The position numbers and the translations under genes are program-made. The notes beneath the pieces are model-generated. The model saw nothing but the letters and a program-made list of their open reading frames with translations, was not told the DNA's origin and did no database searches. A stretch of DNA of 64,000 nt from Candidatus Nitrospira allomarina (GTDB lineage: Bacteria; Nitrospirota; Nitrospiria; Nitrospirales; UBA8639): the NCBI RefSeq assembly GCF_032050975.1, contig NZ_CP116967.1:62001-126000 (forward strand), written 5' to 3'. Shown here piece by piece: positions 1 through 15,980 of the stretch; the stretch's first letter is position 1; every line of letters begins with the position of its first letter.

Positions 1-680
1 CCTAAAAATAAGCGATTCAAGGTGGTGACCAGCAAGACTAAATACTCATGCTGGAGAGGTGCTGATTCTCCAGTTGCCACACCCACCGTGATCGGATTCA
101 ATCCTTTTCGGGACCCGATGGCCAACGCCAATAAAAATTTCAACAGAATCAACCCTGCCCCCCATTCCCCTAACCGGCCTATCGACTGTTTGGTTTCGAG
201 GCCTAGTTGGGTCCCATGATAAATGGCTCCGGCCCCGAAAAACATTCCATGCAGGGGCTCGCGGTTTTCTGGAAATCGAATACGAAGAACCGGTCGTGTT
301 TCAAACGATAATCTCGGAGTCATGGCTTCGGCCTGTACTAACAATTGGTCAAGCGTGTTTGGCTCAAATTTCCCTAAACCCACATCCCCCGCAATCAGAT
401 TAGCCGTCCCTGAGGGCAACACAGCCAACCGGGGCATGACAGCAAAAGGACGATAATGAAACAAAGCTCCCAGGGTGGCTTGAATGGTCCCATCCCCTCC
501 ATTGACGACCACACAATTCACCTGGCGGTCAGCAAACATCTTCAGCGATTCTAGGATATCTGCAGGCGTGTTGACCTCAGCCCGCTGCACTTCTGGGTAT
601 TTGGTGTAAATTTCTTGGAAAAGGTCCGGCTTCCGCCTATTACGACCACTCAACGAATTATGAAGGATCCCCACATGCAT
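1..680 (-). CDS. Diacylglycerol kinase-family lipid kinase (partial, C-terminus off the window)
   Basis: The frame is open from an ATG at 680 to the window edge, giving about 226 N-terminal residues. It shows the DAGK catalytic-domain signature: a start of MHVGILHNSLSG, the nucleotide-binding GGDGT motif at residues 61-65, and LPSGTANL near residue 90. The family includes diacylglycerol, sphingosine and ceramide kinases and YegS-type lipid kinases, which phosphorylate a lipid hydroxyl with ATP at the inner membrane. It follows a CDP-alcohol phosphatidyltransferase by about 107 bases on the same strand, and the sphingolipid genes lie a few kb away, so a ceramide or sphingoid-base substrate is possible but only inferred. 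A TTG at 695 with GAGG upstream is a competing start. Confidence 0.8.
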   Translation of the reverse strand, partial: MHVGILHNSLSGRNRRKPDLFQEIYTKYPEVQRAEVNTPADILESLKMFADRQVNCVVVNGGDGTIQATLGALFHYRPFAVMPRLAVLPSGTANLIAGDVGLGKFEPNTLDQLLVQAEAMTPRLSFETRPVLRIRFPENREPLHGMFFGAGAIYHGTQLGLETKQSIGRLGEWGAGLILLKFLLALAIGSRKGLNPITVGVATGESAPLQHEYLVLLVTTLNRLFL

Positions 681-787
681 CGTAGACCAGTCCAACCGAC
701 CTCAAGCGACGGCAAGGATGAAATGGGAATTATTGACATTGGGGAATACGGGCAAGACGTAATAATGTGCAAAGTCCACATGAAAGA

Positions 788-1993
788 TCATTTGATCGTG
801 ACCGGAGGATTAGTAAACATTCTCACTGCCAGGGAATTTCGATTGACTGGATCGATCTCAGCCAACCAGGAAGTCAGGCCACCCATCCTGGCTTTCCCCC
901 AACCCGCCATAAGAAGTCTCGCGATGAGAATCAGGGTTGAACCCACCGTCCAAATGGCCACAGCCTCCAAGCCCAAATCGGGACGTCCAAAAAGAAGGCT
1001 GGCCGTTAAGAGGATGAGATTAGGATTACGCCGAGCCGTGACAAGCCTGAAATAGGAATCCAGGGGTTTCCAACAAAAGATGACAAATCCCCCCAACCAC
1101 CATTGAAAAATTCCTTCAACCATGCGTCCCAACACATATCCGATCAAAATGATTCCAATGGTGGTTTCCACCGTCAACCATGAGAGCAAAGGGGCAAATG
1201 CGGTGAGACCCACTCCCCAAGCTAAATACCAAAGTGGAGGGTGAATTAAATCAATGCCATGATCAAAAATATTCCCCCATTTACTGGAGGTCACCGTTAC
1301 TCGAGCTAATTTTCCGTCCACCGTATCGAGAAACGTCATGATCCAGCCAAGGACAAGTCCCCAGAAAAACTGCCCAAAAGTGAACAACACGCCTGCTGCA
1401 ATAACAAGTAATAAGCTCAGCGATGTTACCTGATTAGGCGAAATTCCCCAAAGCGCACAAAGCCGTGTGGCCCATTTGGCCGGAACGGGCCAAAGAAACT
1501 TCGTCACCAGATCAGTGACGCCTTTATACGATCCCGTAAATAAATGTTCTTCCAAAGCCACTCGGTTATTTTCGCGAATGGGGAACACATAGGGATGATC
1601 AGTTTTTCGCAATTCGTTGGAAAAGGAAATAGAAAGATCCTGCAATGTCACAGATTGTAAGTTTGCAACATCTCGTGTGTGTTCTCGTTGAATCCCATCA
1701 CACGTTGCGACAGCCAAGGAGGAATCCACATGGGCCACAACCGGGCATAATCCGCTTTGAGCCTCAACTTCCAGAACAACATTGGGTTGCTTTAAGAGAA
1801 AGGAGAATATTCGCGCATCAAATAAATAATCCCCTCTAATAATCAGAAGTGAATGATCGGATGGAAGTTCGTCGAGATTATTGAGAAAATTTCCAACCCC
1901 TAATCGGCTTAACATGCGTTGATACCGGATACGGGATGTCAAATTCCACAAACGGATCTTCGGATCCTTAATAATATAGGCAGACACAGTCAT
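788..1993 (-). CDS. CDP-alcohol phosphatidyltransferase with an N-terminal nucleotidyltransferase-like region
   Basis: This 401-residue membrane protein transfers a phospho-alcohol from a CDP-activated donor. The complete CDP-alcohol phosphotransferase motif is visible at residues 223-248: D223, D226-G227, A230-R231, G240, D244 and D248. Several hydrophobic segments follow. Residues 1-150 are soluble and look like a degenerate nucleotidyltransferase domain, the layout of bifunctional inositol-phosphate cytidylyltransferase/phosphotransferases, but I see no intact G-x-G-x-x-R loop. The partner nucleotidyltransferase may therefore be a separate gene, such as 4557-5276 or 5373-6182. Likely role: making a phospholipid or sphingolipid head group; the substrate is unknown. 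Confidence 0.8.
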   Translation of the reverse strand: MTVSAYIIKDPKIRLWNLTSRIRYQRMLSRLGVGNFLNNLDELPSDHSLLIIRGDYLFDARIFSFLLKQPNVVLEVEAQSGLCPVVAHVDSSLAVATCDGIQREHTRDVANLQSVTLQDLSISFSNELRKTDHPYVFPIRENNRVALEEHLFTGSYKGVTDLVTKFLWPVPAKWATRLCALWGISPNQVTSLSLLLVIAAGVLFTFGQFFWGLVLGWIMTFLDTVDGKLARVTVTSSKWGNIFDHGIDLIHPPLWYLAWGVGLTAFAPLLSWLTVETTIGIILIGYVLGRMVEGIFQWWLGGFVIFCWKPLDSYFRLVTARRNPNLILLTASLLFGRPDLGLEAVAIWTVGSTLILIARLLMAGWGKARMGGLTSWLAEIDPVNRNSLAVRMFTNPPVTIK

Positions 1994-2271
1994 TGAACTA
2001 CCACGCCTTATTCCCCTTATACATTAAAAAATAATACAGTCGACCGACTTTTCCATCATATAACTGACTGGGACAAATATGATTGCGACCATAATCCCGT
2101 CTATGATTGCAATCGGAATTCATTCCAACAAAATCCCTTTGGCATATGTCTGAATTTGTATGCAACCTTGCTTATACCTCCAAATACATAACATCAACCA
2201 TGACCAGACACCCTTAGAGACGAAATAGCCGTTGATCATGCACGATCTCTACGCCTACTTTCCACTGTTTT

Positions 2272-3342
2272 TCAATTGAGATAACGCCGCCACAACACAA
2301 AAGTGACAAGAGACAACAGGAGGAAGGGAGCGGCCGTGGTCAATAGAGGAGAGGCTCCGAACAGAATTCCAACATGCTTAGAAATTTCCATCATCAAATA
2401 ATACCCCAGACCGACCAGGGATCCAATGAATACCCTCTTTCCCGCTGCAGACATTCGCAAGGGACCGAAAACAAACGGGATGGCCACCAAGATCATAAGC
2501 CCGGTATTCAAGGGCATAAAAATTTTGTCCCAAAAGCTTAACTCATATCTCAGAAAATTTTGCTTTTTTCGTTTTAAGATTTCCATGTATTGGTAAAGCT
2601 CGGAAGGGGCCAATGTGGAAGAAGGAAGAGTCAATAACCGGACTTCATTCTGTTTAAGCGGAGAGTCCCATTCCAGACTCTCCATCTGCTCCTGGGAAAC
2701 ACTATATCCGTGAATGACCTGCTTTTTGATATTTCTCAGAATCCATTTCTGAGAATTGACAATTTCTGCCTCTTGAGCATGCATATAGAAATCCAAATGT
2801 CCGGCATCATTAAATTCAAAAATATCAAGGCCTTGGGGACTCTCTCCGTAGCGAATCTGATGAATCCTGATAAAGCGTCTTCCCTCACGAAACCAGAAGC
2901 CCTGCTTTCCCTTATATGCTCCAGAATCCGACAATGCCATTGATCGCTTAAAATAGGCCTCCTGGTCCAGGGGGGGATTGACAACCTCTTCAAGAAAGCC
3001 CACGAGTAAAATGAAATATGCTCCAACCTTCATCACTGCCCCGGCAATTTGGTAGGGAGAAACTCCAGCGGCCTGCATCGCGATGAGCTCCCGGCCATTG
3101 GCAAGGCTCCCTAAGGCCATAATACTCCCTAACAACGCCACAAACGGCGCGAGAAACACCAACCGGGTTGGCAGAGTCAGCAATAAAAACTCACCAGCGC
3201 TCCAAAAGGTATAGCGCCCCTTACCCACGTCATCCAGCTCTTCAACAAATACGATTAAACTGAAGACCGCCAAAAATATGGCCAGCACAGGAAAATACCC
3301 TTTCAGTAAACTGACCGCCAGATACCGATTGAGAATTTTCAT
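2272..3342 (-). CDS. lptG: LPS export ABC transporter permease LptG
   Basis: At 356 residues it has the usual length and YjgP/YjgQ-family layout: three N-terminal membrane helices, a periplasmic beta-jellyroll-like middle, and three C-terminal helices. Typical features are the MKILNRYLAVSLLKGY start, the cytoplasmic coupling region ANGRELIAMQAAGVSPYQI, and a helix with LGYYLMMEISKHVG. LptG works with LptF and the LptB ATPase (not in this window) to extract lipopolysaccharide from the inner membrane. It lies about 100 bases downstream of lptF on the same strand, so co-transcription is likely. Confidence 0.9.
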   Translation of the reverse strand: MKILNRYLAVSLLKGYFPVLAIFLAVFSLIVFVEELDDVGKGRYTFWSAGEFLLLTLPTRLVFLAPFVALLGSIMALGSLANGRELIAMQAAGVSPYQIAGAVMKVGAYFILLVGFLEEVVNPPLDQEAYFKRSMALSDSGAYKGKQGFWFREGRRFIRIHQIRYGESPQGLDIFEFNDAGHLDFYMHAQEAEIVNSQKWILRNIKKQVIHGYSVSQEQMESLEWDSPLKQNEVRLLTLPSSTLAPSELYQYMEILKRKKQNFLRYELSFWDKIFMPLNTGLMILVAIPFVFGPLRMSAAGKRVFIGSLVGLGYYLMMEISKHVGILFGASPLLTTAAPFLLLSLVTFVLWRRYLN

Positions 3343-3438
3343 AAAATTATCGTAAAACCAGCCAGATACGCCATTTCCTATTTACTGGCTCTGTTCAGAA
3401 AATCTGAATATCGTAAGAGAGTATGAAACCGGGATTTT

Positions 3439-4497
3439 TTAGGACATGCCCCGGGTGAATCGCGAGGGCGCCAACCAATATGCCAATAAGGCTCCTAAGA
3501 CAATAACAATCGACCAAAGTCCCGGAATAATGGGGAGCATGCCCTGCTCAACAAGATTTCTCACCATCAGCCCCGTAAAGTAATAGACTGAAAAAATTAC
3601 CGTCGCTGTGAAAATTTTGGCGTATCTGCCCTGCCTCGGTGAAGCCCGACTCAACGGCACTCCCAGCAGCCCCATGAGAATGGCCGAAAAAGGGGCTAAA
3701 AACCTCCATTGCAGTTCTGTGATATCCTTGCGAGAATTAGATTTTAATAAATTTCCCGTGGATTCGGCCTTACGTTTATACTCCGCGACAAGCTCCCGAG
3801 GATAAATCGCCATCCGTGAAAAACTAGAAATGTGCTTGATCTCCCCCTCCCTTGTCAGTTTATATTCGAATCCATCAAAGAGAACAGGAATCGAGATGCC
3901 ACTTTGGGGATCAAGTTGCTCTTGAGCTGTCTTTGCTGAAAAGACTTGCAACGTCTCTCCATGTTCACTTTGAACAAACACCTCACTTAATTTTTGGTGA
4001 CGTTCATCAATATCCTCTGCGAAAAAAACCAAAGATCCATTACGTCGTTCATAAAAGTGCCCGGCATCCAAATTGCTCAAACGAAATCCAGCCTCTCCTT
4101 CATCTTTTAATCGATAGATTTCTTCATAAGCCAATGGACGCAAATATAAAGAAAAGATGCTGACAAGGACGGCCACCAAACAGGAAAGGGAAAAAACCGT
4201 AAGGAGGATCCGGTATGGATTGACACCACACGCCATAAAGGCTTTCATTTCAGAGTCGGTATATAATCGGCCAAATCCCAAAATAACGCCGAAATACAAC
4301 GAAATGGGAATGAGGACTTCAAGCGCGATTCCCACTTTTAAGGCAATTAACGTGAGAATCATATTGGCCGGCAACAGGGCATTGACGGCTTTGGCTAAAA
4401 ATGTGACCCAACTATATCCGGCAAATAACGCCACCAAAAGTCCACAGACCACGGCTGATGGCTTCAGGACTTCGCGAATTAAATATTTGACCAACAT
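3439..4497 (-). CDS. lptF: LPS export ABC transporter permease LptF
   Basis: This is the second YjgP/YjgQ-family permease, 352 residues from the ATG at 4497. A GAGG lies about nine bases upstream; an in-frame TTG at 4500 is less likely. It shows N-terminal helices, the RPLAYEEIYRLKDEGEAGF segment typical of LptF after the first helices, a periplasmic domain, and the conserved PLSRASPRQGRYAK before the last helices. It pairs with LptG in the LptB2FG transporter. Its start is divergent from the LicC-like gene at 4557, with about 60 bases between them to hold both promoters. Confidence 0.9.
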   Translation of the reverse strand: MLVKYLIREVLKPSAVVCGLLVALFAGYSWVTFLAKAVNALLPANMILTLIALKVGIALEVLIPISLYFGVILGFGRLYTDSEMKAFMACGVNPYRILLTVFSLSCLVAVLVSIFSLYLRPLAYEEIYRLKDEGEAGFRLSNLDAGHFYERRNGSLVFFAEDIDERHQKLSEVFVQSEHGETLQVFSAKTAQEQLDPQSGISIPVLFDGFEYKLTREGEIKHISSFSRMAIYPRELVAEYKRKAESTGNLLKSNSRKDITELQWRFLAPFSAILMGLLGVPLSRASPRQGRYAKIFTATVIFSVYYFTGLMVRNLVEQGMLPIIPGLWSIVIVLGALLAYWLAPSRFTRGMS

Positions 4498-4556
4498 CAA
4501 TCGACCCTCAGCCCAACGGTCCAGATGGAATATCCCATATTAGGAGAACTGCAACG

Positions 4557-5276
4557 ATGAAAGCCGTAATATTAAGTGCTGGCCAGGGAAAACGGTTACT
4601 CCCGCACACAGCCGATAAACCCAAATGTACCGTTCCCGTCAATGGACTACCCATTGTGAAACGGCAAATCCAAGCACTCCTTCGCGCAGGAATCGATTCC
4701 ATTCACATTGTGGTCGGGTTTGGGGCTGAAAAGGTTGAAGCTCTTCTAACCGACGAAATGGCCTCTGGCTCTGTCCGCACCATCTATAATCCATTTTTTG
4801 CGATGGCAGATAATTTGATGAGTTGTTGGGCGGCTCGGAACGACATGAGTCAGGATTTCCTTTTAATAAATGGGGATACCCTATTTGAATCAGCCGTTCT
4901 TGATGGGCTGTTGCAGGCTCCCTCTAATCCCATCACCTTAGTGACCGATGAGAAAATTCGCTACGATGCTGACGACATGAAAGTCATCGTACATGGCTCA
5001 CAATTGGATCGAATTGGCAAAACCCTGACCATCGAACAGGTGAACGGAGAGTCCATCGGGATGATACGATTTCAGGGCAATGGACCTAAAATCTTTCTTT
5101 CCACGTTAGACCAACGAATTCGCAAACCGGAGGCACTCAAGCAATGGTATTTATCACTCATCGACGAATTAGCCCAACAGGGTCATGTGTCGACCTTTTG
5201 CATCAAAGGGTTGAAGTGGGCTGAGATCGACAATCCTTCTGATTTAGAACAGGCGGAACGTCTATTCAAAAATTAG
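4557..5276 (+). CDS. LicC-like phosphocholine/sugar-phosphate cytidylyltransferase family protein
   Basis: This 239-residue nucleotidyltransferase has the GT-A-like NTP-transfer fold. It begins MKAVILSAGQGKRLLP, the G-x-G-x-R phosphate loop, followed by KPK at 21-23. It has a metal-binding NGD (LLINGDTLFE) and ends with WAEIDNPSDLEQA, the pattern of LicC and related choline-phosphate or inositol-phosphate cytidylyltransferases. Expected activity: CTP plus a phospho-alcohol gives a CDP-alcohol. A CDP-alcohol phosphatidyltransferase about 2.6 kb away could use the product. Substrate specificity cannot be read from the sequence. Confidence 0.75.
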   Translation: MKAVILSAGQGKRLLPHTADKPKCTVPVNGLPIVKRQIQALLRAGIDSIHIVVGFGAEKVEALLTDEMASGSVRTIYNPFFAMADNLMSCWAARNDMSQDFLLINGDTLFESAVLDGLLQAPSNPITLVTDEKIRYDADDMKVIVHGSQLDRIGKTLTIEQVNGESIGMIRFQGNGPKIFLSTLDQRIRKPEALKQWYLSLIDELAQQGHVSTFCIKGLKWAEIDNPSDLEQAERLFKN

Positions 5277-5306
5277 CAATCACGAAAAGCCCTTTCATTG
5301 ATTGCT
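5275..5306. repeat. Inverted repeat between convergent genes
   Basis: A perfect 8-base inverted repeat (AGCAATCA / TGATTGCT) encloses a 16-base loop just after the LicC-like gene. There is no T-run, so it is at best a weak terminator or mRNA-end hairpin between two convergent genes. Confidence 0.35.
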
Positions 5307-5372
5307 CACGCTAGCTGATTGTTGCGAAATTCGGATCTGCCAATACCTGATGCACCATACAGCCATTCCCTG

Positions 5373-6182
5373 CTAGAGGGTTTCTTGTCGTTTCGCCAAG
5401 ATTTCTTCCGCTAAGGAAAGATCTTCAGGAGTATCCACATCGATGGCCGCTTCAGGAAACGGAAGCAGCACTTCTTGCACATGAAGATTGAGCATTTGCC
5501 CCAGCCGTCTTAGAGCTTCTGCAAGGGATAACCAACCAAGCACATAGCGAACGAGGGCCAGCCCACCAAGCGTTCGAATCAGGCGAAGGGGATGCTTACG
5601 CTCACGCTCAATCCGGCTCCAGAACTCCACCATTCGCTTAGCCTTTGGTGTACAGAGGACAAATAAATTGCATCCACAGAACCCTCCTCCCGTCAGTCGA
5701 GTGACTGTTCGCTTGGATTGAGGATAAGACGCCACTACCAGGGAATAGGGCACCAGACCTACGGCCACATCCATTTGCTTTTCCTGGGCTTCACGCAAAA
5801 AATAATCAACCATCTCCGGTGTTAACAGGGCATGGTCCGCCGTCGTGACCAGGACAGGGAATTCCTGAGGATGTTCATTTAGAAACCTCGCAACGCTGAG
5901 ACTCGGACCTTGTGCAGGTTCCACCCACTGGACCGCTCCTGACGCAATCAATTTCTCTAAAAACGAATTATCTTGCACCGTTTCCCAGGATGGCCCGCAT
6001 AATATTCTTTTTCCCACTCCGTCCGATTGGGCTAAGGCCTCTAATACACGGGAAATCATAGGTTCCCCACCAACCTGCGCCAAAACCTTATTGGCTACCC
6101 CTGCCATCCGGGCCACTGGGTCTCGACCGGTTCTGGCACCAGCCAATACCAGAGCCGTGACAGCTTGGCGTTCAAGCCCCAT
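5373..6182 (-). CDS. MobA-like NTP transferase domain protein
   Basis: This 269-residue protein has a MobA/GlmU-type nucleotidyltransferase fold. It contains ALVLAGARTGRDP near the N-terminus (NTP loop), a lysine in NKVLAQVGGEPMI, VTTADHALLTPEMVD (metal-binding Asp) and a C-terminal AIDVDTPEDLSLAEEIL, which is typical of this group. GAGGA sits just before the ATG. It is 27 bases downstream of the GNAT acyltransferase gene on the same strand, in an apparent operon with the hydroxylase at 7434-8168. It probably activates a phosphorylated alcohol or sugar for a lipid head group; the exact substrate is unknown. Confidence 0.7.
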   Translation of the reverse strand: MGLERQAVTALVLAGARTGRDPVARMAGVANKVLAQVGGEPMISRVLEALAQSDGVGKRILCGPSWETVQDNSFLEKLIASGAVQWVEPAQGPSLSVARFLNEHPQEFPVLVTTADHALLTPEMVDYFLREAQEKQMDVAVGLVPYSLVVASYPQSKRTVTRLTGGGFCGCNLFVLCTPKAKRMVEFWSRIERERKHPLRLIRTLGGLALVRYVLGWLSLAEALRRLGQMLNLHVQEVLLPFPEAAIDVDTPEDLSLAEEILAKRQETL

Positions 6183-6209: not shown

Positions 6210-7349
6210 TCATTGAAGATGCTTCTCATAAATTCTATAGGTCTTGTATGGTTCGGCTCCGAGTGATTCCAGGATGTGACGCATGCGTTTATTCCCTTCC
6301 AAAATCCAGGAGGTTTCGATCTGCTGGATATTTTTACGAAGGCCGGCTTCCCTCACAGCTTCAATCAACCCATAGGCCATCGCCGCCCCCATGGGACTGG
6401 ATTGGAATCGTTTACGCACTCCCATTAAGGCAACCCGAGCCGACCGGGGATAGGTGGCTTTCACCCGCCATAAGATTTTTAGCCACCCCCAGGGGAACAC
6501 CTGCCCATTGAGATCTCGAATGACTTCATGAATATTGGGAAAGGCAACCAACATCGCCGTTGGCTCTCCATCGATTTCAGCGATCTGCACAAAATCATCC
6601 TCGACCAAAAGCTTAAGCTGCTGACCGACCTCGGCAAATTCGGCATCGGTAAATGGAAGAAACCCCCAATTGTCTGACCAGGCCTCTTCGAATATATCCT
6701 TGATAATCGCCAAATCCTCTTTCAGATGCACCCGCCGTAACGGACGAATGCGCATTGAAGTTTTCGCTTTTTTGAGAAACAGGGATACTCCAGGAGGAAA
6801 ACTAAAATGTATTCCAATCCGATAGGCTAGAAGGTCTTGGGCCTTTTTATAGGCATTTCGTTCAACAAATTGCGCGTAGTAAGGTCTGGCATGGCCCATC
6901 ATAATCATGGGCGGTGAATCAAATCCATCGACCAACAAACCACATTCCTGATTGATGGACAAATTAAACGGCCCCCGAACATTTGTCATCCCCTGAGTCT
7001 GAAGCCAGGTTTCGGCAGCCTGGAACAACGTCTGAAAGACACTGTCCTCCTCCTCTGCTTCAAGCAAGCCAAAAAACCCCGTCTGATCCTGATACTTGCC
7101 GAGATGCAGGTCGTCGATCTGAGCACAGATACGCCCAACAGGTTCCTGCCCACGATAGGCTAGCCAACATTGCCAACGAGCATGCTGAAAATATGGATTT
7201 TTGGGGGAAAAAGTATGAAGCCGCTCAAGCCATAAAGGTGGAATCCAATGAGGATCTGAGTTGTACAATTTCCAGGGAAGACGAATAAATTCTTTAAGGG
7301 CGGCCCGGTCGGCAACCGGTTCAACACGAATCAAAACGCCTTTCCCCAA
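6210..7349 (-). CDS. GNAT-fold N-acyltransferase, candidate bacterial ceramide synthase
   Basis: This 379-residue protein starts at a TTG preceded by AAGGTGG. It belongs to the large GNAT family recognised by FIRLPWKLYNSDPHWIPPL near the N-terminus, an RGPFNLSINQECGLLVDGFD stretch with PPMIMMGHARPYY after it, and a C-terminal acetyltransferase half ending in ETSWILEGNKRM. Members of this family occur with serine palmitoyltransferase genes. The GNAT-like bacterial ceramide synthase (bCerS) of Caulobacter, which N-acylates the sphingoid base, is to my knowledge a member. Its position between a fatty-acid hydroxylase and a nucleotidyltransferase, opposite the Spt operon, fits that role. The function is inferred from family and context. 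Confidence 0.65.
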   Translation of the reverse strand: MGKGVLIRVEPVADRAALKEFIRLPWKLYNSDPHWIPPLWLERLHTFSPKNPYFQHARWQCWLAYRGQEPVGRICAQIDDLHLGKYQDQTGFFGLLEAEEEDSVFQTLFQAAETWLQTQGMTNVRGPFNLSINQECGLLVDGFDSPPMIMMGHARPYYAQFVERNAYKKAQDLLAYRIGIHFSFPPGVSLFLKKAKTSMRIRPLRRVHLKEDLAIIKDIFEEAWSDNWGFLPFTDAEFAEVGQQLKLLVEDDFVQIAEIDGEPTAMLVAFPNIHEVIRDLNGQVFPWGWLKILWRVKATYPRSARVALMGVRKRFQSSPMGAAMAYGLIEAVREAGLRKNIQQIETSWILEGNKRMRHILESLGAEPYKTYRIYEKHLQ

Positions 7350-7433: not shown

Positions 7434-8168
7434 TTATGGCTTCTGTTCGGATAGTTGGGCCACCCACGGATAGTGGGATCGTTCCTGATCCGCATAGCCC
7501 AGGTTGGAAACAGTCTGACTGAAGGCCACGTCTTCGGCATTCCCATACTCACTTCCGAATATCCGATCACAGAACAGACTCGTGATGCCAAAGTTTCCTT
7601 TTTCATTATGAAAATGATGCAGTAAATGATGTCGCTTCACCCGCCGTAAAAATTTATTTTTAGGACTCACACGTAAATGCTGCATGCAATGACAGAGTTC
7701 ATACACCATAAAACACGCCAATCCTGTCGCAAAAGACAGAGCAGCCCCCACCCACCCCCCAAGACTCATTCCAATGGGGAAGGTGGCCACAACAATCGTC
7801 GGCAGGGTGGTTGAACCTGCTCCAAACAACACCCGCAAATCATTGGGATCTTGATGGTGATCATAGTGAATTCGTTTCCACAAAGCTGCCGTCCATGGCG
7901 AGCGATAGAGATATCGCCCATGTAAAATAAACCGATGTACAGCATATTCCACGAATGGGTAAGCCACCAGAGTCCCCACGATACTTCCTGCCACACGCAA
8001 TGGAGAAACAGGGAAATAAGGGAAAATTACGAAGGCCCCGATAATACTACAAGCCAATAACACCGCATACATTTGAATACTCGGGTATAGAATATACGCC
8101 CTCCTTAGATCCCGAAATGTCATGCGATCAAGGAGATACTTTTCACGATACCATTGACTGGTTAACAC
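7434..8168 (-). CDS. Fatty-acid hydroxylase / sterol desaturase superfamily membrane protein
   Basis: This 244-residue integral membrane di-iron enzyme shows the histidine clusters of the superfamily: H78-x4-H83, H101-x2-H104-H105, H160-x3-H164 and H180-H181-x2-H184-H185-x-H187. Two or three hydrophobic stretches precede and separate them. Family members hydroxylate or desaturate fatty acyl chains, sterols or sphingoid bases using O2. It heads the minus-strand group with the putative ceramide synthase about 85 bases downstream, so hydroxylation of a ceramide acyl chain or long-chain base is the best inference. Carotenoid hydroxylation is an alternative. Confidence 0.75.
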   Translation of the reverse strand: MLTSQWYREKYLLDRMTFRDLRRAYILYPSIQMYAVLLACSIIGAFVIFPYFPVSPLRVAGSIVGTLVAYPFVEYAVHRFILHGRYLYRSPWTAALWKRIHYDHHQDPNDLRVLFGAGSTTLPTIVVATFPIGMSLGGWVGAALSFATGLACFMVYELCHCMQHLRVSPKNKFLRRVKRHHLLHHFHNEKGNFGITSLFCDRIFGSEYGNAEDVAFSQTVSNLGYADQERSHYPWVAQLSEQKP

Positions 8169-8556
8169 CCTAGAGCCTCCATCCCTTTCTGCATTTAACC
8201 ATTGCCATCAATCCACCATCACCTGACTCGCCAGTGAATTCCTCACGTACCAATTATAGAAACCTTCAGAAGAAGCCACAAGAATACAATCCGGAAACGA
8301 TCCCTCCAATTGGAATCCGGCAGAGATCATGGACGAAAGCCTAAATTTCCCTCAGCAATACCCAAACACTTGCTTCACTCCTCTTCGGCTTCGTTGCCTA
8401 ACCTTGCCACATGATAATGTTGAAATCCGTTTCTGACACAAAAGCTGTGCTATATTTCGACGTGCCGGGCAGGATGCCAACATAGGCCTATGGGAACGAA
8501 GGGACTCCATTGGCTCATAGACACAAGGATGACTCTTTGGGTATAAGGGCGTGCTC
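8169..8556. other. Intergenic region between divergent hydroxylase and HIT genes
   Basis: I see no credible gene in about 390 bases. It must hold the divergent promoters for the hydroxylase group and the HIT-domain gene, but I could not pick a convincing promoter. Confidence 0.5.
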
Positions 8557-9000
8557 ATGAACACCACGATGAAAAAATTTGGGTATCCTAACACCTGCCT
8601 CAAAGAGTTTTCCCATTGGGTTGTGCTCTTACGCCCCCAACAGGTAACCCTTGGCTCACTGGTCTTAATTTGTCGAGAGGAAGCTACCGCATTTTCCCAA
8701 ATTAGTGCGGAGGCCTATACAGAACTGCCAAAGATCATACGTGAGATTGAGACAAGTGTCTCACGCACATTTGCCTATAGCAAAATAAATTACCTCATGT
8801 TGATGATGGTTGACCCAGAGGTTCATTTTCATGTCATTCCCCGATATGACACACCTCGATTATTTTCTCAACAGCAATTTCTTGACCACGGATGGCCGGG
8901 GCCACCACTTCTTAAAAATGCGAATGACATATCGGAAGAGGTATACCAAAACCTTTTAAGTCATCTAAAAAATAGCTGGATTCATGAGCCTGCAAGCTAG
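8557..9000 (+). CDS. HIT-family (histidine triad) protein
   Basis: This is about 147 residues from the ATG at 8557, which has AAGGG seven bases upstream. A GTG at 8551 is too close to that site. The histidine-triad signature is seen as VHFHVIPRYD with H90 and H92, where the family has H-x-H-x-H. The earlier LVLICREEATAFSQIS segment matches the conserved fold. HIT proteins are nucleotide hydrolases or transferases that act on nucleoside phosphoramidates, dinucleoside polyphosphates or ADP-sugars. The gene stands alone before a likely terminator, so it may be unrelated to the sphingolipid genes. Confidence 0.75.
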   Translation: MNTTMKKFGYPNTCLKEFSHWVVLLRPQQVTLGSLVLICREEATAFSQISAEAYTELPKIIREIETSVSRTFAYSKINYLMLMMVDPEVHFHVIPRYDTPRLFSQQQFLDHGWPGPPLLKNANDISEEVYQNLLSHLKNSWIHEPAS

Positions 9001-9217: not shown

Positions 9218-10984
9218 ATGAACGCTACACCAACTCATCACCAACTCAAACTAAAACATGGGAACTTCTCCACTCTTTCAGAAGCCCTTGACTATGCAGC
9301 TGCAGGAGAAACCGGCTGTAATTTTTATTCAGGGAGGGGCAAACTCACCCACGTCCTGACATATGCCGATCTGAAACAACAGGCGCAAAATCTTGCTAGA
9401 AGATTGAATGGATTGGCATTATCACGAGGGTCTCGGGTAGCTCTGATTGCTGATACCACCCCAGATTTCATTCGATTCTTTTTTGCCTGTCAGTATGCGG
9501 GACTGATTCCAGTTCCTCTCCCGATTTCATTGCACTTAGGGGGGCATCAGGCATACGTTACCCAACTTAGACGGCTGCTCGATAGCTGCCAAGCCTCTAT
9601 TGCCATGGCACCTGAAGGCTTCTTGCCTTTTTTGGAAGAAGCTGCAACCGGGTTGAACCTGGTCCTCATTGGAGGTCCGGAAACGTTTGCGTCGCTAGAA
9701 GAAATACAAGGTCCCCTCAGCCCACTTGAGCCTCAAGAATTAGCCTATATTCAATACACTTCCGGCAGCACCCGTTGGCCCAGAGGTGTCGAGGTCACTC
9801 AAGCGGCCGTGATGACCAATCTTTCCGGAATCATTCAGCATGGCTTACAAGTTCAATCTGGCGATCGTTGCGTCTCCTGGCTTCCCTTCTACCATGATAT
9901 GGGGTTGGTCGGATTCGTTCTTGGTCCAATCGCTTCCCAGCTTTCTGTTGATTATTTGAGCACACGCGATTTTGCCATGCGACCGCGTCAGTGGCTGAAT
10001 TTAATGACGAAGAGTCGGGCGACAATTTCATTCAGCCCCTCTTTTGGATACGAGCTCTGCGTGCGAAGACTGGGCGAAGACTTTAATGAACACTATGATC
10101 TCAGCTCTTGGCGAATTGCCGGTGCCGGAGCAGAAACCATTCGTGCCGATAGCCTCTCACGTTTTGCCAAAACTCTGAAGACAAGCGGGTTTAAACCTGA
10201 AGCATTTCTGGCCTGCTATGGGATGGCTGAATGCTCTTTGGCAATCAGCTTTGCTCCCTTGAACAAAGGCCTCGAGGTCGACAGAGTTGACGCAAATCAG
10301 CTTTCCCATAACAGGCTAGCCATGCCATTTGTTCCATTCTCGGCTGATGAGGAGCAGGCTCGATGCAGCAAATTTGTAAATTGCGGAGTTCCTCTACCCG
10401 GATATGAAGTCGAAATTCGAAATATGTCGGGAGAGGTCGTTAAAGAACGAGAAAGTGGAATTATTTTTGTTCGTGGGGCAAGCACCATGACGGGATACTT
10501 CAATGATCCCATCCTGACCCAGGAGGTGCTTTCCACTGATGGCTGGCTCAATACGGGCGACATCGGCTATTGGGTCGAAAACAGCCTCGTCATTATTGGT
10601 CGTTCGAAAGATATGATTATCATTAATGGCCGAAATATCTGGCCTCAGGACTTAGAATTCATGGCAGAGCAACAGGCGGAAGTCCGACCAGGTGATTCCT
10701 CCGCTTTTTCCGTTTCCACGCCAGACGGCCATGAGATCGCGATCATGGTGGTTCAATGTCGGGAAATGGATAACAAAAAACGAGAAGACTTGGTTCAGCG
10801 CCTACGATCCTTAGTGCATAAAGAGTTGTCTATTCCTTGCTACATTGAACTTATCCCACCAAGGACACTTCCGCGGACGTCATCTGGAAAACTCTCTCGA
10901 TCCCGTGCCAAAGCGGACTTCCTCACCCGCATTCAGTGGGAAGAGGTAACTACACACTTGTCTACCACCGCTAGGTCTGCCTAA
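9218..10984 (+). CDS. Fatty acyl-AMP ligase / acyl-ACP synthetase of the sphingolipid operon
   Basis: This 588-residue ANL-superfamily adenylating enzyme has the ATP-binding motif YTSGSTRWPRG at 180-190, LPFYHDMGLVG, CYGMAECSLA, GWLNTGDIGY, and the C-terminal LPRTSSGKLSR with the catalytic lysine. The YHDMGL segment and overall length fit fatty acyl-AMP ligases, which activate a fatty acid with ATP and load it onto an acyl carrier protein. In Caulobacter a comparable synthetase charges the dedicated ACP used by serine palmitoyltransferase. Here it begins a tight forward operon with the reductase, ACP and Spt genes. Confidence 0.8.
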   Translation: MNATPTHHQLKLKHGNFSTLSEALDYAAAGETGCNFYSGRGKLTHVLTYADLKQQAQNLARRLNGLALSRGSRVALIADTTPDFIRFFFACQYAGLIPVPLPISLHLGGHQAYVTQLRRLLDSCQASIAMAPEGFLPFLEEAATGLNLVLIGGPETFASLEEIQGPLSPLEPQELAYIQYTSGSTRWPRGVEVTQAAVMTNLSGIIQHGLQVQSGDRCVSWLPFYHDMGLVGFVLGPIASQLSVDYLSTRDFAMRPRQWLNLMTKSRATISFSPSFGYELCVRRLGEDFNEHYDLSSWRIAGAGAETIRADSLSRFAKTLKTSGFKPEAFLACYGMAECSLAISFAPLNKGLEVDRVDANQLSHNRLAMPFVPFSADEEQARCSKFVNCGVPLPGYEVEIRNMSGEVVKERESGIIFVRGASTMTGYFNDPILTQEVLSTDGWLNTGDIGYWVENSLVIIGRSKDMIIINGRNIWPQDLEFMAEQQAEVRPGDSSAFSVSTPDGHEIAIMVVQCREMDNKKREDLVQRLRSLVHKELSIPCYIELIPPRTLPRTSSGKLSRSRAKADFLTRIQWEEVTTHLSTTARSA

Positions 10985-11020: not shown

Positions 11021-11965
11021 ATGCGCACTACCGTTGCCCTAACCGGGGCTTCCGGTTTCATTGGGGGAGTCATCGCACAACATTTAAGGATGGGTGGATG
11101 GCATGTGCGTGGACTCGCGCGCTCTCCCCGCCAGGCTCAACAGCTCGAGAACCTGGGAATCACACCGGTCCAAGGCCAATTGGGAGATCCTGCCAGCCTG
11201 TTAACCCTAGTCAAAGACTCGGTTGGTGTCATTCACTGCGCAGGAGCGATTCGTGGTGTGAGTCGAGAAGACTTCTTTCCGACCAACGTGATGGGAGTCT
11301 CTAACCTAGTTCAGGCCTGCCTTGCACAGTCCTCTCTTCCTCGGTTTGTTCTCCTCTCATCTCTCGCTGCTCGTGAGCCATCACTCTCACCATATGCATG
11401 GAGTAAACATGAAGGTGAATCTGTTTTAATCCGTGAGGCGGGGTTACTGAAGTGGAGTATTTTTCGTCCACCTGCCGTCTATGGACCAAAGGACCGTGCG
11501 CTACTCCCTCTTTTTACCTTGTTACGCAAAGGGATTGGGGTTCAACTTGGGCCCTCCCACGCCAAATTTTCCTTAATTCATGTCGAGGATCTCGCCAACG
11601 CTATTCTTCATTGGCTAAAAATGGGAGACCCACCCTTTCAGACCTTTGAGATTGATGATGGCTTCCCTGGAGGATATTCCTGGGAGGATATTTTTCGTCT
11701 TTCCAACCCTCGCCTTCGGCTGTGCTTGGCTATTCCACCAAGTCTGTTACAAGTGGGAGGGAAAATTAATGAAATAAGTTCCCGCCTCTTTGGGTATTCT
11801 CCCCTTTTCACCCCCGGGAAGGTTGCTGAACTCCTCCACCCAAATTGGGTCTGTCATAGTTCTCACGCAACGCAGACCCTTGGCTGGAGGCCGCAAATCA
11901 GCCTCAAAGAAGGCTTGCGTCGGTTGTTCACATCGGATAGGCTCATGCCATTCCATAGGAATTAG
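11021..11965 (+). CDS. NAD-dependent epimerase/dehydratase-family reductase (CerR-like)
   Basis: This is a 314-residue extended short-chain dehydrogenase. The Rossmann loop TGASGFIGG is at residues 8-16. The catalytic Y125-x3-K129 (YAWSK) follows a serine-rich LLSSLAA strand. It lies 36 bases after the acyl-AMP ligase gene and about 40 before the ACP gene. In the Caulobacter ceramide pathway an enzyme of this family (CerR) reduces the 3-oxo group, and operon position supports the same role here. Sugar epimerase activity cannot be excluded from sequence alone. Confidence 0.72.
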   Translation: MRTTVALTGASGFIGGVIAQHLRMGGWHVRGLARSPRQAQQLENLGITPVQGQLGDPASLLTLVKDSVGVIHCAGAIRGVSREDFFPTNVMGVSNLVQACLAQSSLPRFVLLSSLAAREPSLSPYAWSKHEGESVLIREAGLLKWSIFRPPAVYGPKDRALLPLFTLLRKGIGVQLGPSHAKFSLIHVEDLANAILHWLKMGDPPFQTFEIDDGFPGGYSWEDIFRLSNPRLRLCLAIPPSLLQVGGKINEISSRLFGYSPLFTPGKVAELLHPNWVCHSSHATQTLGWRPQISLKEGLRRLFTSDRLMPFHRN

Positions 11966-12004: not shown

Positions 12005-12250
12005 ATGTTGAGTTATTCCGACATCCTTTCCCAACTGTTCGACACTCTCAAGCCTTTTACCAAACAGGGCTTTCGGTTAAAAGAATCAACCGAGCTGGTC
12101 GCAGAACTGGGATTGGATTCTTTACAAGTTATGCAAGTCCTTTTAAAAATCGAAGATCATTTTGATATTTCCATCCCCCTGAACAATCTTCCCAATATCC
12201 GAACAGTCCAGGACCTTGGGGAAGAGATTGAGAAGTTGCTGAAAGGGTAA
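12005..12250 (+). CDS. Acyl carrier protein dedicated to sphingolipid synthesis
   Basis: This 81-residue acidic helical protein carries the 4'-phosphopantetheine site L-x-L-D38-S39-L40 (Ser39), followed by QVMQVLLKIEDHF, the usual helix II. It lies two bases before the serine palmitoyltransferase gene and behind the acyl-AMP ligase and reductase genes. It probably presents the long-chain acyl thioester to Spt in place of acyl-CoA, as in the AcpR-dependent Caulobacter pathway. Confidence 0.85.
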   Translation: MLSYSDILSQLFDTLKPFTKQGFRLKESTELVAELGLDSLQVMQVLLKIEDHFDISIPLNNLPNIRTVQDLGEEIEKLLKG

Positions 12251-12252
12251 TC

Positions 12253-13483
12253 ATGTCACTATTTGACAAATTTCTTCCCATTCAAGAAGCCAGAAACGAG
12301 TTACTTAAAAGTGGAGTCAACCCCTTTCACGTCACCGTCGAAAAGATCATTTCTCCGACAGAAGCCCTCATCAACGGTCGCAATACCATCCTGGTTGGGA
12401 CCAATAATTACTTAGGTTTGACCTTTCATCCCGACTCCATTCTAGCCGGCCAACAGGCGCTTGCCCAGGAAGGAACAGGCACCACCGGATCGAGGATGGC
12501 CAATGGATCTTTTGCGAGCCACAAGGCGCTGGAAAACGCCATCGCGGATTTCTATGGTGCCCCCTATGCGATTGTCTTTTCCACAGGCTACCAGGCCAAT
12601 CTGGGAGTGCTTTCTGCTCTTGCAGGCCCAGGGGACACTATTTTGATAGATGGGGACTCCCATGCCAGCATTTATGATGGATGCCGACTGGGAGGCGCGG
12701 AGATTATCCGGTTTAAGCATAACGACGTGGCAGATTTGGAAAAACGGCTCCGCCGATTGGGGGATCGAAGTTATCGGACTTTAATTGTCGTTGAGGGCAT
12801 TTATAGCATGCTGGGGGATCGAGCCCCGTTGGCTGAAATCGTCGAAGTGAAGAAAAAATATGGGGCCACCCTGATTGTTGATGAAGCGCATTCGTTGGGA
12901 GTACTTGGACAACATGGCCGTGGATTAGCCGAAGAAACCGGAGTCGAACAGGACGTCGATTGTATTGTCGGGACTTTCAGCAAAAGCCTGGGCTCGACGG
13001 GGGGGGTTTGGCGTTAGCTTCCATCCAGAATTCGAATTAATCCGGTACACCAGTCGACCCTATATTTTCACCGCTTCCCCATGTCCCTCAGTTGTTGCTT
13101 CAACACGAGCGACCATTCGCATCATCCAGGCTCATCCAGAACTCCGTCAGCATTTGTGGACTAATTCCCGGCATTTGTATGAGGGGTTAACGAAGAGTGG
13201 GTACATGCTTGGGGCGGAGGTAGGACCTATTATTGCCGCAATGGTCCCCAATAAAGAATTGGCTCTCGCCATGTGGCAACAACTTTTGGAAAATGGGATT
13301 TATGTCAACCTCATGATTCCTCCTGCCACTCCAAATGGCGAATGTCTCTTGCGATGCAGTGTGAGCGCCGCTCATACACATAACCAAATTGAAAAAATTA
13401 TTTCGGCATTTACCGATTTGCCTCATGAACCTCAAACCCATAGCAACCCTGCTCACTTACAACCAGATGCAACCCTCAATTAA
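12253..13483 (+). pseudogene. spt: Serine palmitoyltransferase, reading frame broken at a poly-G run
   Basis: Two frames together cover a full-length (about 409 residues) alpha-oxoamine synthase of the PLP-dependent aminotransferase fold. Frame one (12253-13017) has LVGTNNYLGLTF, GTGTTGSRMANGS, GDSHAS (H137), DEAH (D210, H213) and the PLP-lysine motif GTFSKSLG (K244). It then shifts out of frame and stops. The rest (RPYIFTASPCPSVVAST and LLRCSVSAAHT) continues in another frame to 13483. Removing one G from the 8-G run at 12999-13006 restores TGGFGVSFHPEF. The enzyme condenses serine with a long acyl thioester to 3-oxo-sphinganine. The pattern SPTEA...TILVGTNNYLGL matches bacterial Spt more closely than AONS or KBL. 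Whether this is decay, phase variation, slippage or sequencing error is open. Confidence 0.85.
12999..13006 (+). repeat. Eight-G homopolymer at the spt frameshift
   Basis: Eight consecutive G bases lie directly after the codons for the PLP-lysine motif of spt. Seven would keep the gene in frame. Such tracts are typical slipped-strand (contingency) sites and are also common sequencing-error sites. Confidence 0.9.
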
Positions 13484-13544: not shown

Positions 13545-15980
13545 ATGTCACGTCACCGCTCTAGACCCAACGGCATCAGGGTAATACCCGAAAAAATCAT
13601 CTTGGAGGTCAGAGAAGGCACAGCTTCCTCTGGAAAAACTCCCGTTCGAATTTTCGTTGGAAGCGAATCAGCCCAAGGCCGAGCCGAACGCATACTCATC
13701 TGGTCAATTGAACAGGTTCGGGATCCAGGTCGAGTATACGAAATTTATCTCATGAAGGAATTAAAGGGATTTGACCGACGCAAATGGCTCACGGGGTTTA
13801 CAAATTATCGTTTTGCGATCCCGGCATTTGCGGGCCAGGCAGGGCGAGCGATTTACAACGATGTCGATCAAATCTACCTGGCGGATCCTGGAACATTATT
13901 CGACCACGATTTGAACGATCATGGCTTCCTGTCCATTGCACGTAATGATACTTCGGTGATGGTCATGGATTGCCAAAAAATGGCCGGCATCTGGTCCCTT
14001 GAGGCGGCAAAATTCGAGAAAAAAAATGCACTGGTGCAGCGCGCTTTGGAAGTACCCAACCTCTGGGGTCCATTGGAACCCGAATGGAATGCCCGTGATG
14101 AAGAATATCGGGCAGGACAATCTAAAGTCCTTCATTATACGGCTCTCCATACGCAACCTTGGCAGCCCTTTCCTCAAGAATTTGTGTACCAGAAAAGTCT
14201 CGAGGGCGATGTTTGGTTTGATTTGGAGCACAGTGCCAATCAAAGAGGATTCCTTGTATTTTCTCGAAAGCATCCCTCCTCCCTTTTTACAGAATTTGCT
14301 AAACAAACGAGAGATCTCCGGAATATTTCCCCGACGAAACTATCTCCTTTCCAGGATGTGGAGACGATTAACGAACTTCAAGAAGCGATGCGCACCCTGC
14401 AGGCCAAGTCGCTTCTGTATTGTCATTTTGGGCAACTGTTCGAAAATGTTCCCGAACACCTTCGAGCTACAGACCTTTCCTCATTAAACATGACCACAAT
14501 GGATCTTTGTCAGGAGGACTCTGGCCCCCTGCCTTCCCGACAATTCGACCTGGTCCTGTCATCCGGATGGCTTCATCTCGTCCCAGAAGAAGATATCCCA
14601 TGGGTTATCGAAGAAATGTTTAACCGTGCACATGGCATGGTCTATATGGCGATAGAAATCACCAACCCCGACCAATCCAATGCTGCTGAAAATCCCCACG
14701 CCAGCTTGAAACAAAATATTAACCGGTGGATGAGTCACCTTGAATCAATTGGCGCCCGCTATCCGGCTATTCACTGGAAGCTTGTGTTTCACACAAAAAC
14801 ACCTAAGGGAATTGCAAAAAGATTTATCCGTTGTGGAGGCCATTGGATCGGTTCTCCCCCACAAACCTGGATTCTCTCAGACGGCAAAGTTGGACATACC
14901 ACTCAATCAGAAGTACTTGCGAAGTCGTTGGGGTGGCCTTTTGAAATTAAACAGTTGCGATTCTATGGATGGCATAAAATCCAAAAACTCGTGTGGGGAT
15001 TATTACCTCCAAATTTGATAGGTGTAGATAGAGTTCACTCTTCCCCTCTCTGCCCCCCATGGCCAGACCTAGTGATTTCTACCGGATGGCGACCCGCACC
15101 AATTGCCAGATGGATTCGTGAACAAAGCCAGGGAAAAACACGTATCATTCAATTGGGGCGAAAAGGAGGGTGTTCAGCTGACCTATTTGATGTGGTCATT
15201 ACTCCGTCCTATTACGGCTTCCCTCCACATCCACACCGCATCGAAACAGTGGCCCCCTTGAACGAATTAACTCAGGACAGTTTGGATAGGGTGAAGCAGC
15301 GATGGTCAAATCTTTTCGACAACACTCCCCATCCTCGCATCGTCTTCGTCGTGGGAGGTGCCACTGCACGGTTTAAATTTACTCCCGATATGGTTCGCAC
15401 GATTGGAGGCCAACTCAAACACCTGGCGCAAAAATGCCATGGAAAAATTTTTGCTGTTACGTCTCCTAGAACGGGCAAAGACCTGATTCACGCTCTTGAG
15501 TCAACATTGCTCCCTGATCATTTTGTGCATAAGTGGAAGCCCAACCAGTCTGATAACCCTTATTTCGCCTATTTGGCAGGTGCCGATGTCATTATTGTCA
15601 CAGGTGAAAGCGAATCCATGTTGGCTGAGGCGGCTTCTCTTGGCAAGCCGGTGTATATTGTCCCACTTCCGGAAAATTCCCCAACGTGGAAAGTACGGCT
15701 CAGTGAAAAGATTATTCAACGAGCCCAATCCCAGCCCTTGAATAAACGGGGAACGGCTCGTCCACAGCAGGGGTTGGAACGGCTTTGCGCTCGGTTGATT
15801 CGTGCCGGTTTGGTGCAACCACGACGAAATCTCACCATGCTGCATGATTCTCTTATCAAGAATGGGATAGCCCGGCCGTTCGGAGAACCCATTACAAACG
15901 GAGCACGGCCACAATTAAAGGAAACGGAAATGGTCGCGCGAAAAGTCAAAGCCACTCTTGGAATCTTTGATCACCTATAA
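13545..15980 (+). CDS. Three-domain fusion: GT-A glycosyltransferase, methyltransferase-like region, ELM1-family domain
   Basis: This 811-residue protein appears to join three parts. Residues about 33-270 resemble a nucleotide-sugar glycosyltransferase, with VRIFVGSESAQGR at the start and a metal-binding D106-V-D108 in YNDVDQIYL. Residues about 285-375 (LLYCHFGQLF, FDLVLSSGWLHLVPEED) look like a degenerate SAM-methyltransferase segment without a clear glycine-rich loop. Residues about 440-720 match the ELM1/DUF1022 family: WILSDGKVGHTTQ, DLVISTGWRPAP, VGGATARFKF and ITVTGES-type GESESMLAEAASLGKP. ELM1-like bacterial proteins have a GT-B-like fold. It starts about 60 bases after spt. It may glycosylate a lipid or surface glycan; the substrate is unknown. 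Confidence 0.65.
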   Translation: MSRHRSRPNGIRVIPEKIILEVREGTASSGKTPVRIFVGSESAQGRAERILIWSIEQVRDPGRVYEIYLMKELKGFDRRKWLTGFTNYRFAIPAFAGQAGRAIYNDVDQIYLADPGTLFDHDLNDHGFLSIARNDTSVMVMDCQKMAGIWSLEAAKFEKKNALVQRALEVPNLWGPLEPEWNARDEEYRAGQSKVLHYTALHTQPWQPFPQEFVYQKSLEGDVWFDLEHSANQRGFLVFSRKHPSSLFTEFAKQTRDLRNISPTKLSPFQDVETINELQEAMRTLQAKSLLYCHFGQLFENVPEHLRATDLSSLNMTTMDLCQEDSGPLPSRQFDLVLSSGWLHLVPEEDIPWVIEEMFNRAHGMVYMAIEITNPDQSNAAENPHASLKQNINRWMSHLESIGARYPAIHWKLVFHTKTPKGIAKRFIRCGGHWIGSPPQTWILSDGKVGHTTQSEVLAKSLGWPFEIKQLRFYGWHKIQKLVWGLLPPNLIGVDRVHSSPLCPPWPDLVISTGWRPAPIARWIREQSQGKTRIIQLGRKGGCSADLFDVVITPSYYGFPPHPHRIETVAPLNELTQDSLDRVKQRWSNLFDNTPHPRIVFVVGGATARFKFTPDMVRTIGGQLKHLAQKCHGKIFAVTSPRTGKDLIHALESTLLPDHFVHKWKPNQSDNPYFAYLAGADVIIVTGESESMLAEAASLGKPVYIVPLPENSPTWKVRLSEKIIQRAQSQPLNKRGTARPQQGLERLCARLIRAGLVQPRRNLTMLHDSLIKNGIARPFGEPITNGARPQLKETEMVARKVKATLGIFDHL

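Follow-up and report, generated by a model that had tools for sequence, protein, structure and literature searches.

We found that the first 6,182 positions of a 64,000-nucleotide stretch of the Candidatus Nitrospira allomarina genome (the window; positions 62001-126000 on one contig of 4.55 Mb) very likely hold one half, for head group and transport, of a phosphosphingolipid locus of the Caulobacter type, the kind that yields ceramide phosphoglycerate (CPG) and CPG2, in another phylum, Nitrospirota. A first-pass annotation of the interval had noted a DAGK-type lipid kinase, a CDP-alcohol phosphotransferase with a degenerate N-terminal nucleotidyltransferase domain, a LicC-like cytidylyltransferase and a MobA-like enzyme, and had proposed that they attach an inositol- or choline-type head group to ceramide or diacylglycerol. 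All four genes are where it placed them (matches to PF00781, PF01066 and, twice, PF12804; Table 1). The same interval contains LptG and LptF genes that it did not mention, both scoring above NCBIfam equivalog cut-offs. Of its proposal, the head-group set, the degenerate domain and the separate cytidylyltransferase stand; the inositol or choline head group does not.

In the available text on the Caulobacter locus, CC_1168-CC_1152 (PMC11324152), the ceramide genes aasR, cerR, acpR, spt and cerS are accompanied by the head-group genes CC_1161 (cpgC), CC_1160 (cpgB), CC_1159 (cpgA), CC_1158, CC_1153 and CC_1152 (cpgD), and by second copies of LptC, LptF and LptG. The published evidence there comprises the activities of CpgB and CpgD and mutant lipid profiles; the accessible parts of the papers describe CpgB as a ceramide kinase (PMC10331486) and CpgD as converting cytidine triphosphate (CTP) and phosphoglycerate to CDP-glycerate (PMC12275187). 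The Nitrospirota locus shares cpgA-D, a CC_1153-like gene, a cerS-like gene, lptF/lptG, aasR, cerR, acpR and spt with Caulobacter in nearly the same order, each biosynthetic gene except CC_1158 having a counterpart, and in the window spt, aasR, cerR, acpR and cerS adjoin the head-group genes. It differs in that its host belongs to Nitrospirota, not Pseudomonadota, in that cpgD is on the opposite strand, between lptF and the CC_1153-like gene, and in that a fatty-acid hydroxylase lies inside the cluster. Annotated plasmids of Pseudomonas sp. BYT-5, Roseomonas mucosa and Diaphorobacter sp. JS3051 bridge the two orders. The R. mucosa run reads nucleotidyltransferase, cerS-like gene, sterol-desaturase-type hydroxylase, two LptF/LptG permeases and HIT, then metallophosphoesterase, cpgA, kinase, cpgC-like gene, spt and acp; it tracks the published Caulobacter numbering, with the hydroxylase, HIT and two more genes outside the listed Caulobacter functions, and thus links the order in the window to that in Caulobacter.

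The grouping recurs in relatives. We scored linkage in 83 loci, 80 from a contig scan with the phosphotransferase family and three from the plasmids; the counts are lower bounds, since many loci stop at contig ends and only DNA around each locus was searched. Besides cpgA (83), these loci contain cpgB (75), cpgC (74), lptG (69), lptF (65), cerS (61), the CC_1153-like gene (59), cpgD (34), aasR (26), cerR (19), HIT (15), acpR (12), the hydroxylase (11), spt (9) and ELM1 (4). Eleven Nitrosomonadaceae without cpgD at the cpgA locus have a full-length cpgD (46-51% identical) elsewhere in the genome, and cpgD was present in all 13 genomes asked (these eleven and two Thermodesulfobacteriota). Chance does not account for the grouping, since the block turns up again in Nitrospirota, Thermodesulfobacteriota, Myxococcota and Pseudomonadota. 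One cultured carrier is Nitrosomonas europaea ATCC 25978 (L086).

Co-occurrence gave a similar picture. Among 59 relatives, 27 have a cpgA-type phosphotransferase (at least 428 bits; weak matches below 50 bits, mostly frames of about 500 amino acids, were not counted) and 28 a cerS-like gene; 26 have both and 30 neither. The single genome with cpgA alone (G009) has spt, and the two with cerS alone, G015 and G047, are 84% and 73% complete. A window-type spt (at least 318 bits) is found in 19 of the 20 genomes of the genus, the one without it (G002) being 66% complete, and among 14 genomes asked the cpgA-less G033, G024 and G025 have only spt matches of at most 176 bits. Across 245 genomes of the phylum, cpgA occurs in seven (E 1e-30) and a close cerS (at least 490 bits) in six, all of them cpgA carriers; far cerS relatives (at most 291 bits) occur in 89 more, G132 included, so the cerS family alone is no marker. 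The head-group genes were thus looked for in relatives lacking spt, where their conservation would have tied them to another pathway, and this check did not refute their link to the ceramide genes as the first-pass annotation had it.

The head group is most likely phosphoglycerate. By sequence, the best PDB match of the LicC-like protein is LicC itself (1jyk, 1.9e-12), and its PDB matches include no chain named CpgD. In the available text of two papers (PMC13228409, PMC12275187), 12 residues of CpgD are named as touching CTP, the Mg-bound water or glycerate; we left out Thr88, which acts via its backbone and varies in this family. At matching spacing, Gly12, Arg16, Lys26, Asn90, Thr93 and Asn110 of CpgD correspond to G9, R13, K23, N86, S89 and N105 of the window protein, and Gly111, Asp112, Met147, Lys161, Ser170 and Trp201 to G106, D107, M141, K155, S166 and W197. 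All 12 positions agree, with the similar Ser in place of Thr93. Ten of the contacts are invariant in 26 of 26 relatives; the Thr93 position is S in 22 and T in four, and at the Ser170 position 25 have S and one has A. In 13 further genomes all contacts are kept, with S at the Thr93 place in every one. Aligned to the same profile, LicC has D-A-D and PntC E-S-D where the CpgD-like family has N-G-D, and both lack the D-D-M-K stretch that carries Met147 in that family. The window protein is therefore placed with CpgD, from which it differs in the Ser for Thr93, its activity being predicted from these residues.

The genome content agrees with this placement. Inositol-1-phosphate synthase (PF07994) has no match in the genome, while five of 14 control genomes are positive, and no choline kinase is above cut-off, the one match covering 43 positions at 22 bits against a cut-off of 29. 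We therefore placed the head group as phosphoglycerate, because the CpgD contacts are kept, N-G-D replaces the D-A-D of LicC, and the genome has neither inositol-1-phosphate synthase nor a choline kinase above cut-off. On the same grounds an inositol head group was rejected (CpgD contacts, N-G-D versus D-A-D, PF07994 negative), as was a choline head group (CpgD contacts, N-G-D versus D-A-D, choline kinase below cut-off). Capsule or teichoic-type choline decoration was also set aside, no lic-type partner being seen in the locus.

The N-terminal nucleotidyltransferase-like domain of the phosphotransferase spans approximately residues 1-140, and the first-pass annotation, which had called this domain degenerate, had suggested structure prediction of residues 1-150 as a check. 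We used an AlphaFold model of the whole 401-residue protein (mean pLDDT 88.9, pTM 0.83). Foldseek placed AF2299 and AF2299 chimeras on top (E 8.5e-12 to 2.2e-10) and the fused IPCT-DIPPS enzyme next (1.1e-9); free inositol-1-phosphate cytidylyltransferase came further down the list (E 0.02 to 0.1). These matches mark the domain as cytidylyltransferase-like. Within the first 150 residues, one of 46 members of the phosphotransferase family has the catalytic G-x-G-x-R...K loop, versus 26 of 26 in the LicC-like family, and the GD motif is partly retained (R53-G54-D55). The model thus bears out a degenerate nucleotidyltransferase fold. In the second domain D223, D226, G227, A230, R231, G240, D244 and D248 are invariant in 46 of 46 members, so what we take to be the CDP-alcohol phosphotransferase motif, D-x2-D-G-x2-A-R-x8-G-x3-D-x3-D, is intact.

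The window phosphotransferase shares the whole architecture of AF2299 (PDB 4o6m; Foldseek E about 4e-11, TM-score about 0.6 to 0.7) at 16-18% identity. AF2299, as the accessible part of its description has it, combines an N-terminal cytidylyltransferase-like domain with a donor pocket, small and hydrophilic, in which the glycerol moiety of CDP-glycerol sat, and itself does not process lipids (PMC4634129). Judged from the model, a pocket of this type fits a phosphotransferase that receives a small CDP-alcohol from another enzyme. With CpgD residues in 12 of 12 positions, the LicC-like protein very probably supplies this CDP-alcohol, and it may also, as the first-pass annotation had guessed for one of the separate nucleotidyltransferases, have taken over the job of the degenerate domain. 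The phosphotransferase scores far below the NCBIfam cut-offs for phosphatidylinositol (PI)-phosphate synthase (46.8 versus 170 bits), which counts further against inositol, and for IPCT-DIPPS (28.4 versus 580 bits).

The least understood step concerns CpgC. The available text of Olea-Ozuna et al. (PMC11324152) notes a CDP-diacylglycerol (CDP-DAG)-synthase InterPro domain in CC_1161 and floats an NDP-activated ceramide, and the mechanism of CpgC is called unidentified in the accessible parts of papers of 2025 and 2026 (PMC12275187, PMC13228409). We modelled a CpgC relative (L033; 43 rows, pLDDT 90.5). In Foldseek, Tam41 chains took ranks 1 to 5 (E 4.0e-12 to 5.2e-9); in VIA-align, Tam41 7ecd gave Z 18.9 (230 residues, 3.2 A) and 6ig4 Z 17.6, with the next family, aminoglycoside nucleotidyltransferases, at Z 7.4. 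The fold shared with the Tam41 CDP-DAG synthases extends over 217-230 residues, at 16-19% identity. A profile search found Tam41 at 1.9e-5, and 36 of 43 relatives score E 0.1 or better against Pfam Tam41, the best at 2.7e-9. All 43 rows have Tyr45-Gly46-Ser47, Asp60, Arg101 and Lys103 unchanged. We speak of a Tam41-like fold, and not of a member of the filed family, because the CpgC-like protein of the host has no PF09139 match at E 0.1 and the close relative L033 misses the gathering score (23.0 versus 24). A CdsA-like nature of CpgC was rejected: PF01148 found one gene, at 4.17 Mb, taken as the housekeeping cdsA, and CpgC has the Tam41 fold.

On the strength of the modelled fold, CTP-dependent activation of ceramide-1-phosphate by CpgC is the leading hypothesis, although a fold does not by itself reveal the substrate. 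The fuller version, in which CpgC is a Tam41-like cytidylyltransferase turning ceramide-1-phosphate into CDP-ceramide, so that both partners would be CTP-activated and joined by CDP-alcohol phosphotransferases, is put forward tentatively, at slightly below an even chance; the term CDP-ceramide was not found in the open-licence PubMed Central (PMC) literature. If true, the pathway would be the sphingoid-backbone counterpart of the CDP-DAG branch in glycerolipid synthesis, and the Nitrospirales clusters with two cpgA copies would have one phosphotransferase per step.

By analogy, we infer that the Nitrospirota proteins would act as their Caulobacter counterparts. Ceramide would be made by AasR, AcpR, Spt, CerR and CerS and phosphorylated by CpgB, the DAGK-type kinase, to ceramide-1-phosphate. 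CpgC would activate ceramide-1-phosphate, most likely with CTP to give CDP-ceramide, en route to CPG; CpgD would make CDP-glycerate from CTP and 2-phosphoglycerate, and CpgA would transfer phosphoglycerate from CDP-glycerate onto CPG, giving CPG2. In Caulobacter the second step depends in some way on the MobA-like CC_1153, whose counterpart may serve likewise. The extra LptF/LptG pair probably hands the anionic lipid to the outer membrane.

Several points weigh against the reading of a Caulobacter-type CPG locus. The CpgD residue numbers were matched by spacing (offsets -3 to -6) and not by alignment to CpgD. No CC_1158-like phosphoesterase lies in the 278-nt gap between lptG and cpgA (1993-2272), the genome elsewhere not having been searched; CC_1158 is accessory, as Caulobacter still makes CPG2 without it and several carriers lack it, according to the available text (PMC11324152). 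The CpgC-like protein of the host has no Pfam match at E 0.1, and the PF09139 search is silent in its genome, and equally in all 14 controls. Beside the cpgA-cpgC pair of G132, a distant genome of the phylum and the seventh with cpgA, there is no cpgB, cpgD or LptFG; spt-like (49%) and cerS-like (34%) genes are elsewhere on the same contig. Finally, spt is read in two frames because of a run of eight G at about 13000 (overlap 12965-13017), one G too many. If this truncates spt, the pathway is broken in this strain and the head-group genes receive no ceramide. The closest relative, G010, has seven G at the run, all 17 other relatives that can be read there have an intact frame, the genes next to spt are open, and one-base errors are frequent in assemblies at long G runs. 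The break may stem from the assembly or be a genuine frameshift, possibly a slippery one, and we consider a broken pathway quite unlikely.

The other alternatives concern the product. The same machinery could use another small acidic phospho-alcohol, such as phosphoglycerol or phosphoglycolate, or also act on a glycerolipid. As far as the accessible parts of the papers go, CpgD accepts three phosphoglycerates (PMC12275187), AF2299, the nearest fold to CpgA, held CDP-glycerol (PMC4634129), and the Caulobacter kinase also phosphorylates diacylglycerol in vitro (PMC10331486); two cpgA copies in other Nitrospirales clusters (L043, L044, L046, G023) could mean a varied head group. However, every glycerate contact of CpgD is kept in the window protein and glycerol-1-phosphate was no substrate of CpgD in the published assay (PMC12275187, available text), which makes this variant unlikely. 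The reading first proposed, in which ceramide or diacylglycerol bears an inositol- or choline-type head group, could draw on the solved structures that the phosphotransferase most resembles in fold (AF2299, the IPCT-DIPPS enzyme and PI-phosphate synthases), on the closeness of the cytidylyltransferase to LicC by sequence, and on the same activity of CpgB towards diacylglycerol; N-G-D in all 26 family rows, the CpgD contact residues, and a genome with neither an inositol-1-phosphate synthase match nor a choline kinase above cut-off render it very improbable. A phosphoglycerate head group on ceramide remains the preferred reading.

Table 1. Genes of the proposed Nitrospirota CPG-type cluster (positions in the window unless prefixed G000:C1, which gives the contig).
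Feature	Position	Strand	Basis
cpgB-like DAGK-type (putative ceramide) kinase	3-695, cut at window edge; whole gene G000:C1:61715-62695	minus	PF00781 1.2e-14
cpgC-like gene, 317 aa, directly after the kinase, left of the window	G000:C1:60756-61709		Tam41-like fold
cpgA-like CDP-alcohol phosphotransferase, 401 aa	788-1993	minus	PF01066 5.6e-10
second LptG (lptG2-like)	2272-3342	minus	TIGR04408 329.5 bits, cut-off 240
second LptF (lptF2-like)	3439-4500	minus	TIGR04407 273.5 bits, cut-off 230
cpgD-like, predicted CTP:phosphoglycerate cytidylyltransferase (LicC-like)	4557-5276	plus	PF12804 1.4e-10; PF00483; CpgD contact residues
CC_1153-like second nucleotidyltransferase (MobA-like)	5373-6182	minus	PF12804 4.8e-15; beside cerS in relatives too
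cerS-like N-acyltransferase (putative bacterial ceramide synthase; E. coli YghO relative)	6210-7349	minus	CC_1154 position
fatty acid hydroxylase	7434-8168	minus	PF04116 8.6e-22
HIT-family protein within the cluster	8551-9000	plus	PF01230 7.8e-5; in 15/83 related loci
aasR-like fatty acyl-AMP ligase	9218-10984	plus	NF006624 792.7 bits, cut-off 600
cerR-like NAD-dependent reductase	11021-11965	plus	PF01370 6.6e-22
acpR-like acyl carrier protein	12005-12250	plus	PF00550 4.5e-10
spt, serine palmitoyltransferase, two frames (12253-13017 and 12965-13483)	12253-13483	plus	NF047599

Further features of these genes are as follows. Adding DNA left of the window completes the kinase frame (326 amino acids; L005:17715-18695). 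Its G-D-G-T motif is invariant in an alignment of four, and it reaches only 30 bits against YegS-type NCBIfam models (cut-offs 118-387); it adjoins cpgA and falls outside the YegS equivalog. Its predicted substrate is ceramide. The genome has two LptFG pairs, that of the window and a separate one at 3.556 Mb. The nearest solved structure to the CC_1153-like protein is TTHA0179 (2dpw, 1.5e-23). The cerS-like protein, 47.7% identical to YghO, gave no match in Pfam and NCBIfam scans, and is probably CerS by its gene position; a sterol-desaturase-family gene adjoins cerS in R. mucosa as well. Spt scores 423.7 bits over 251 of 394 positions of NF047599 and matches the bacterial enzyme 2x8u at 3.9e-98. 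Adjoining it, at 13545-15980, is an 811-residue protein that ends in an ELM1 domain (PF06258) and whose N-terminal half has no assignment; a similar long protein, annotated ELM1/GtrOC1, is present in the Pseudomonas BYT-5 cluster.

Gene content varies around this core. A CC_1158-like metallophosphoesterase in divergent orientation lies between lptG and cpgA in three relatives (L056:7712-8776, L135:7968-8909 and L093:8932-10086). The cpgA-cpgC pair of G132 (L133) has phage-like genes before it and a metallophosphoesterase-like frame after it (labels by eye). Clusters of other Nitrospirales have two cpgA copies (L043, L044, L046 and, in G023, L137). In L056 and G018 (L136), cerS, the CC_1153-like gene and cpgD are 87-93% identical to those of the window and lptF-lptG-cpgA-cpgB-cpgC jointly 56-62%, so that identity falls off between cpgD and lptF; G002 shows an equal contrast (cerS 93% versus cpgA 56%). 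From these identities the transport and head-group block seems to have been exchanged as a unit. An Escherichia coli PN43 plasmid (L032) has yghO, an LptF/LptG pair and genes resembling spt, acp, cerR and aasR, and none of the genes annotated over the 21 kb covered is of the cpg type; the second Lpt pair thus travels with ceramide genes even without the cpg head-group set.

The contig scan matched at least 597 stretches, of which 590 were confirmed and 80 kept, mostly from Nitrospirota, Thermodesulfobacteriota, Myxococcota and Nitrosomonadaceae, with no contig titled Caulobacter among the 80. Among the matches listed, the nearest phosphotransferases are those of Nitrospiria bacterium Co_bin.365 (94%) and Nitrospirales bacterium NPIRA06 (92%). 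In a tree made by a quick method from 80 rows (frames of 380-450 amino acids out of 82, plus the window), to which three rows trimmed manually from L030, L031 and L133 were added, the window groups with 10 Nitrospirota rows (SH-aLRT 99), and Nitrospirota do not form one clade (three changes, at least two forced). The published comparison of phosphoglycerate sphingolipid genes covers, in its available text, alpha-, beta- and gamma-proteobacteria (PMC11324152), and the titles and abstract openings of the papers listed from the open-licence PMC literature yielded no report of sphingolipids or ceramide genes of Nitrospira or Nitrospirota. The CPG-type set in Nitrospirota, for which we found no paper, thus appears new, as does the confident model placing CpgC with the Tam41 CDP-DAG synthases.

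The Tam41-like fold of CpgC offers a concrete, testable reaction for the unsolved step of the pathway. In Caulobacter the CPG-type lipid supports survival without lipopolysaccharide and is linked to polymyxin sensitivity. The order Nitrospirales includes nitrite oxidisers. Given that Nitrospirota have the complete set, and that contigs labelled Thermodesulfobacteriota and Myxococcota carry much of it, anionic sphingolipids would be expected over a wider range of bacteria.

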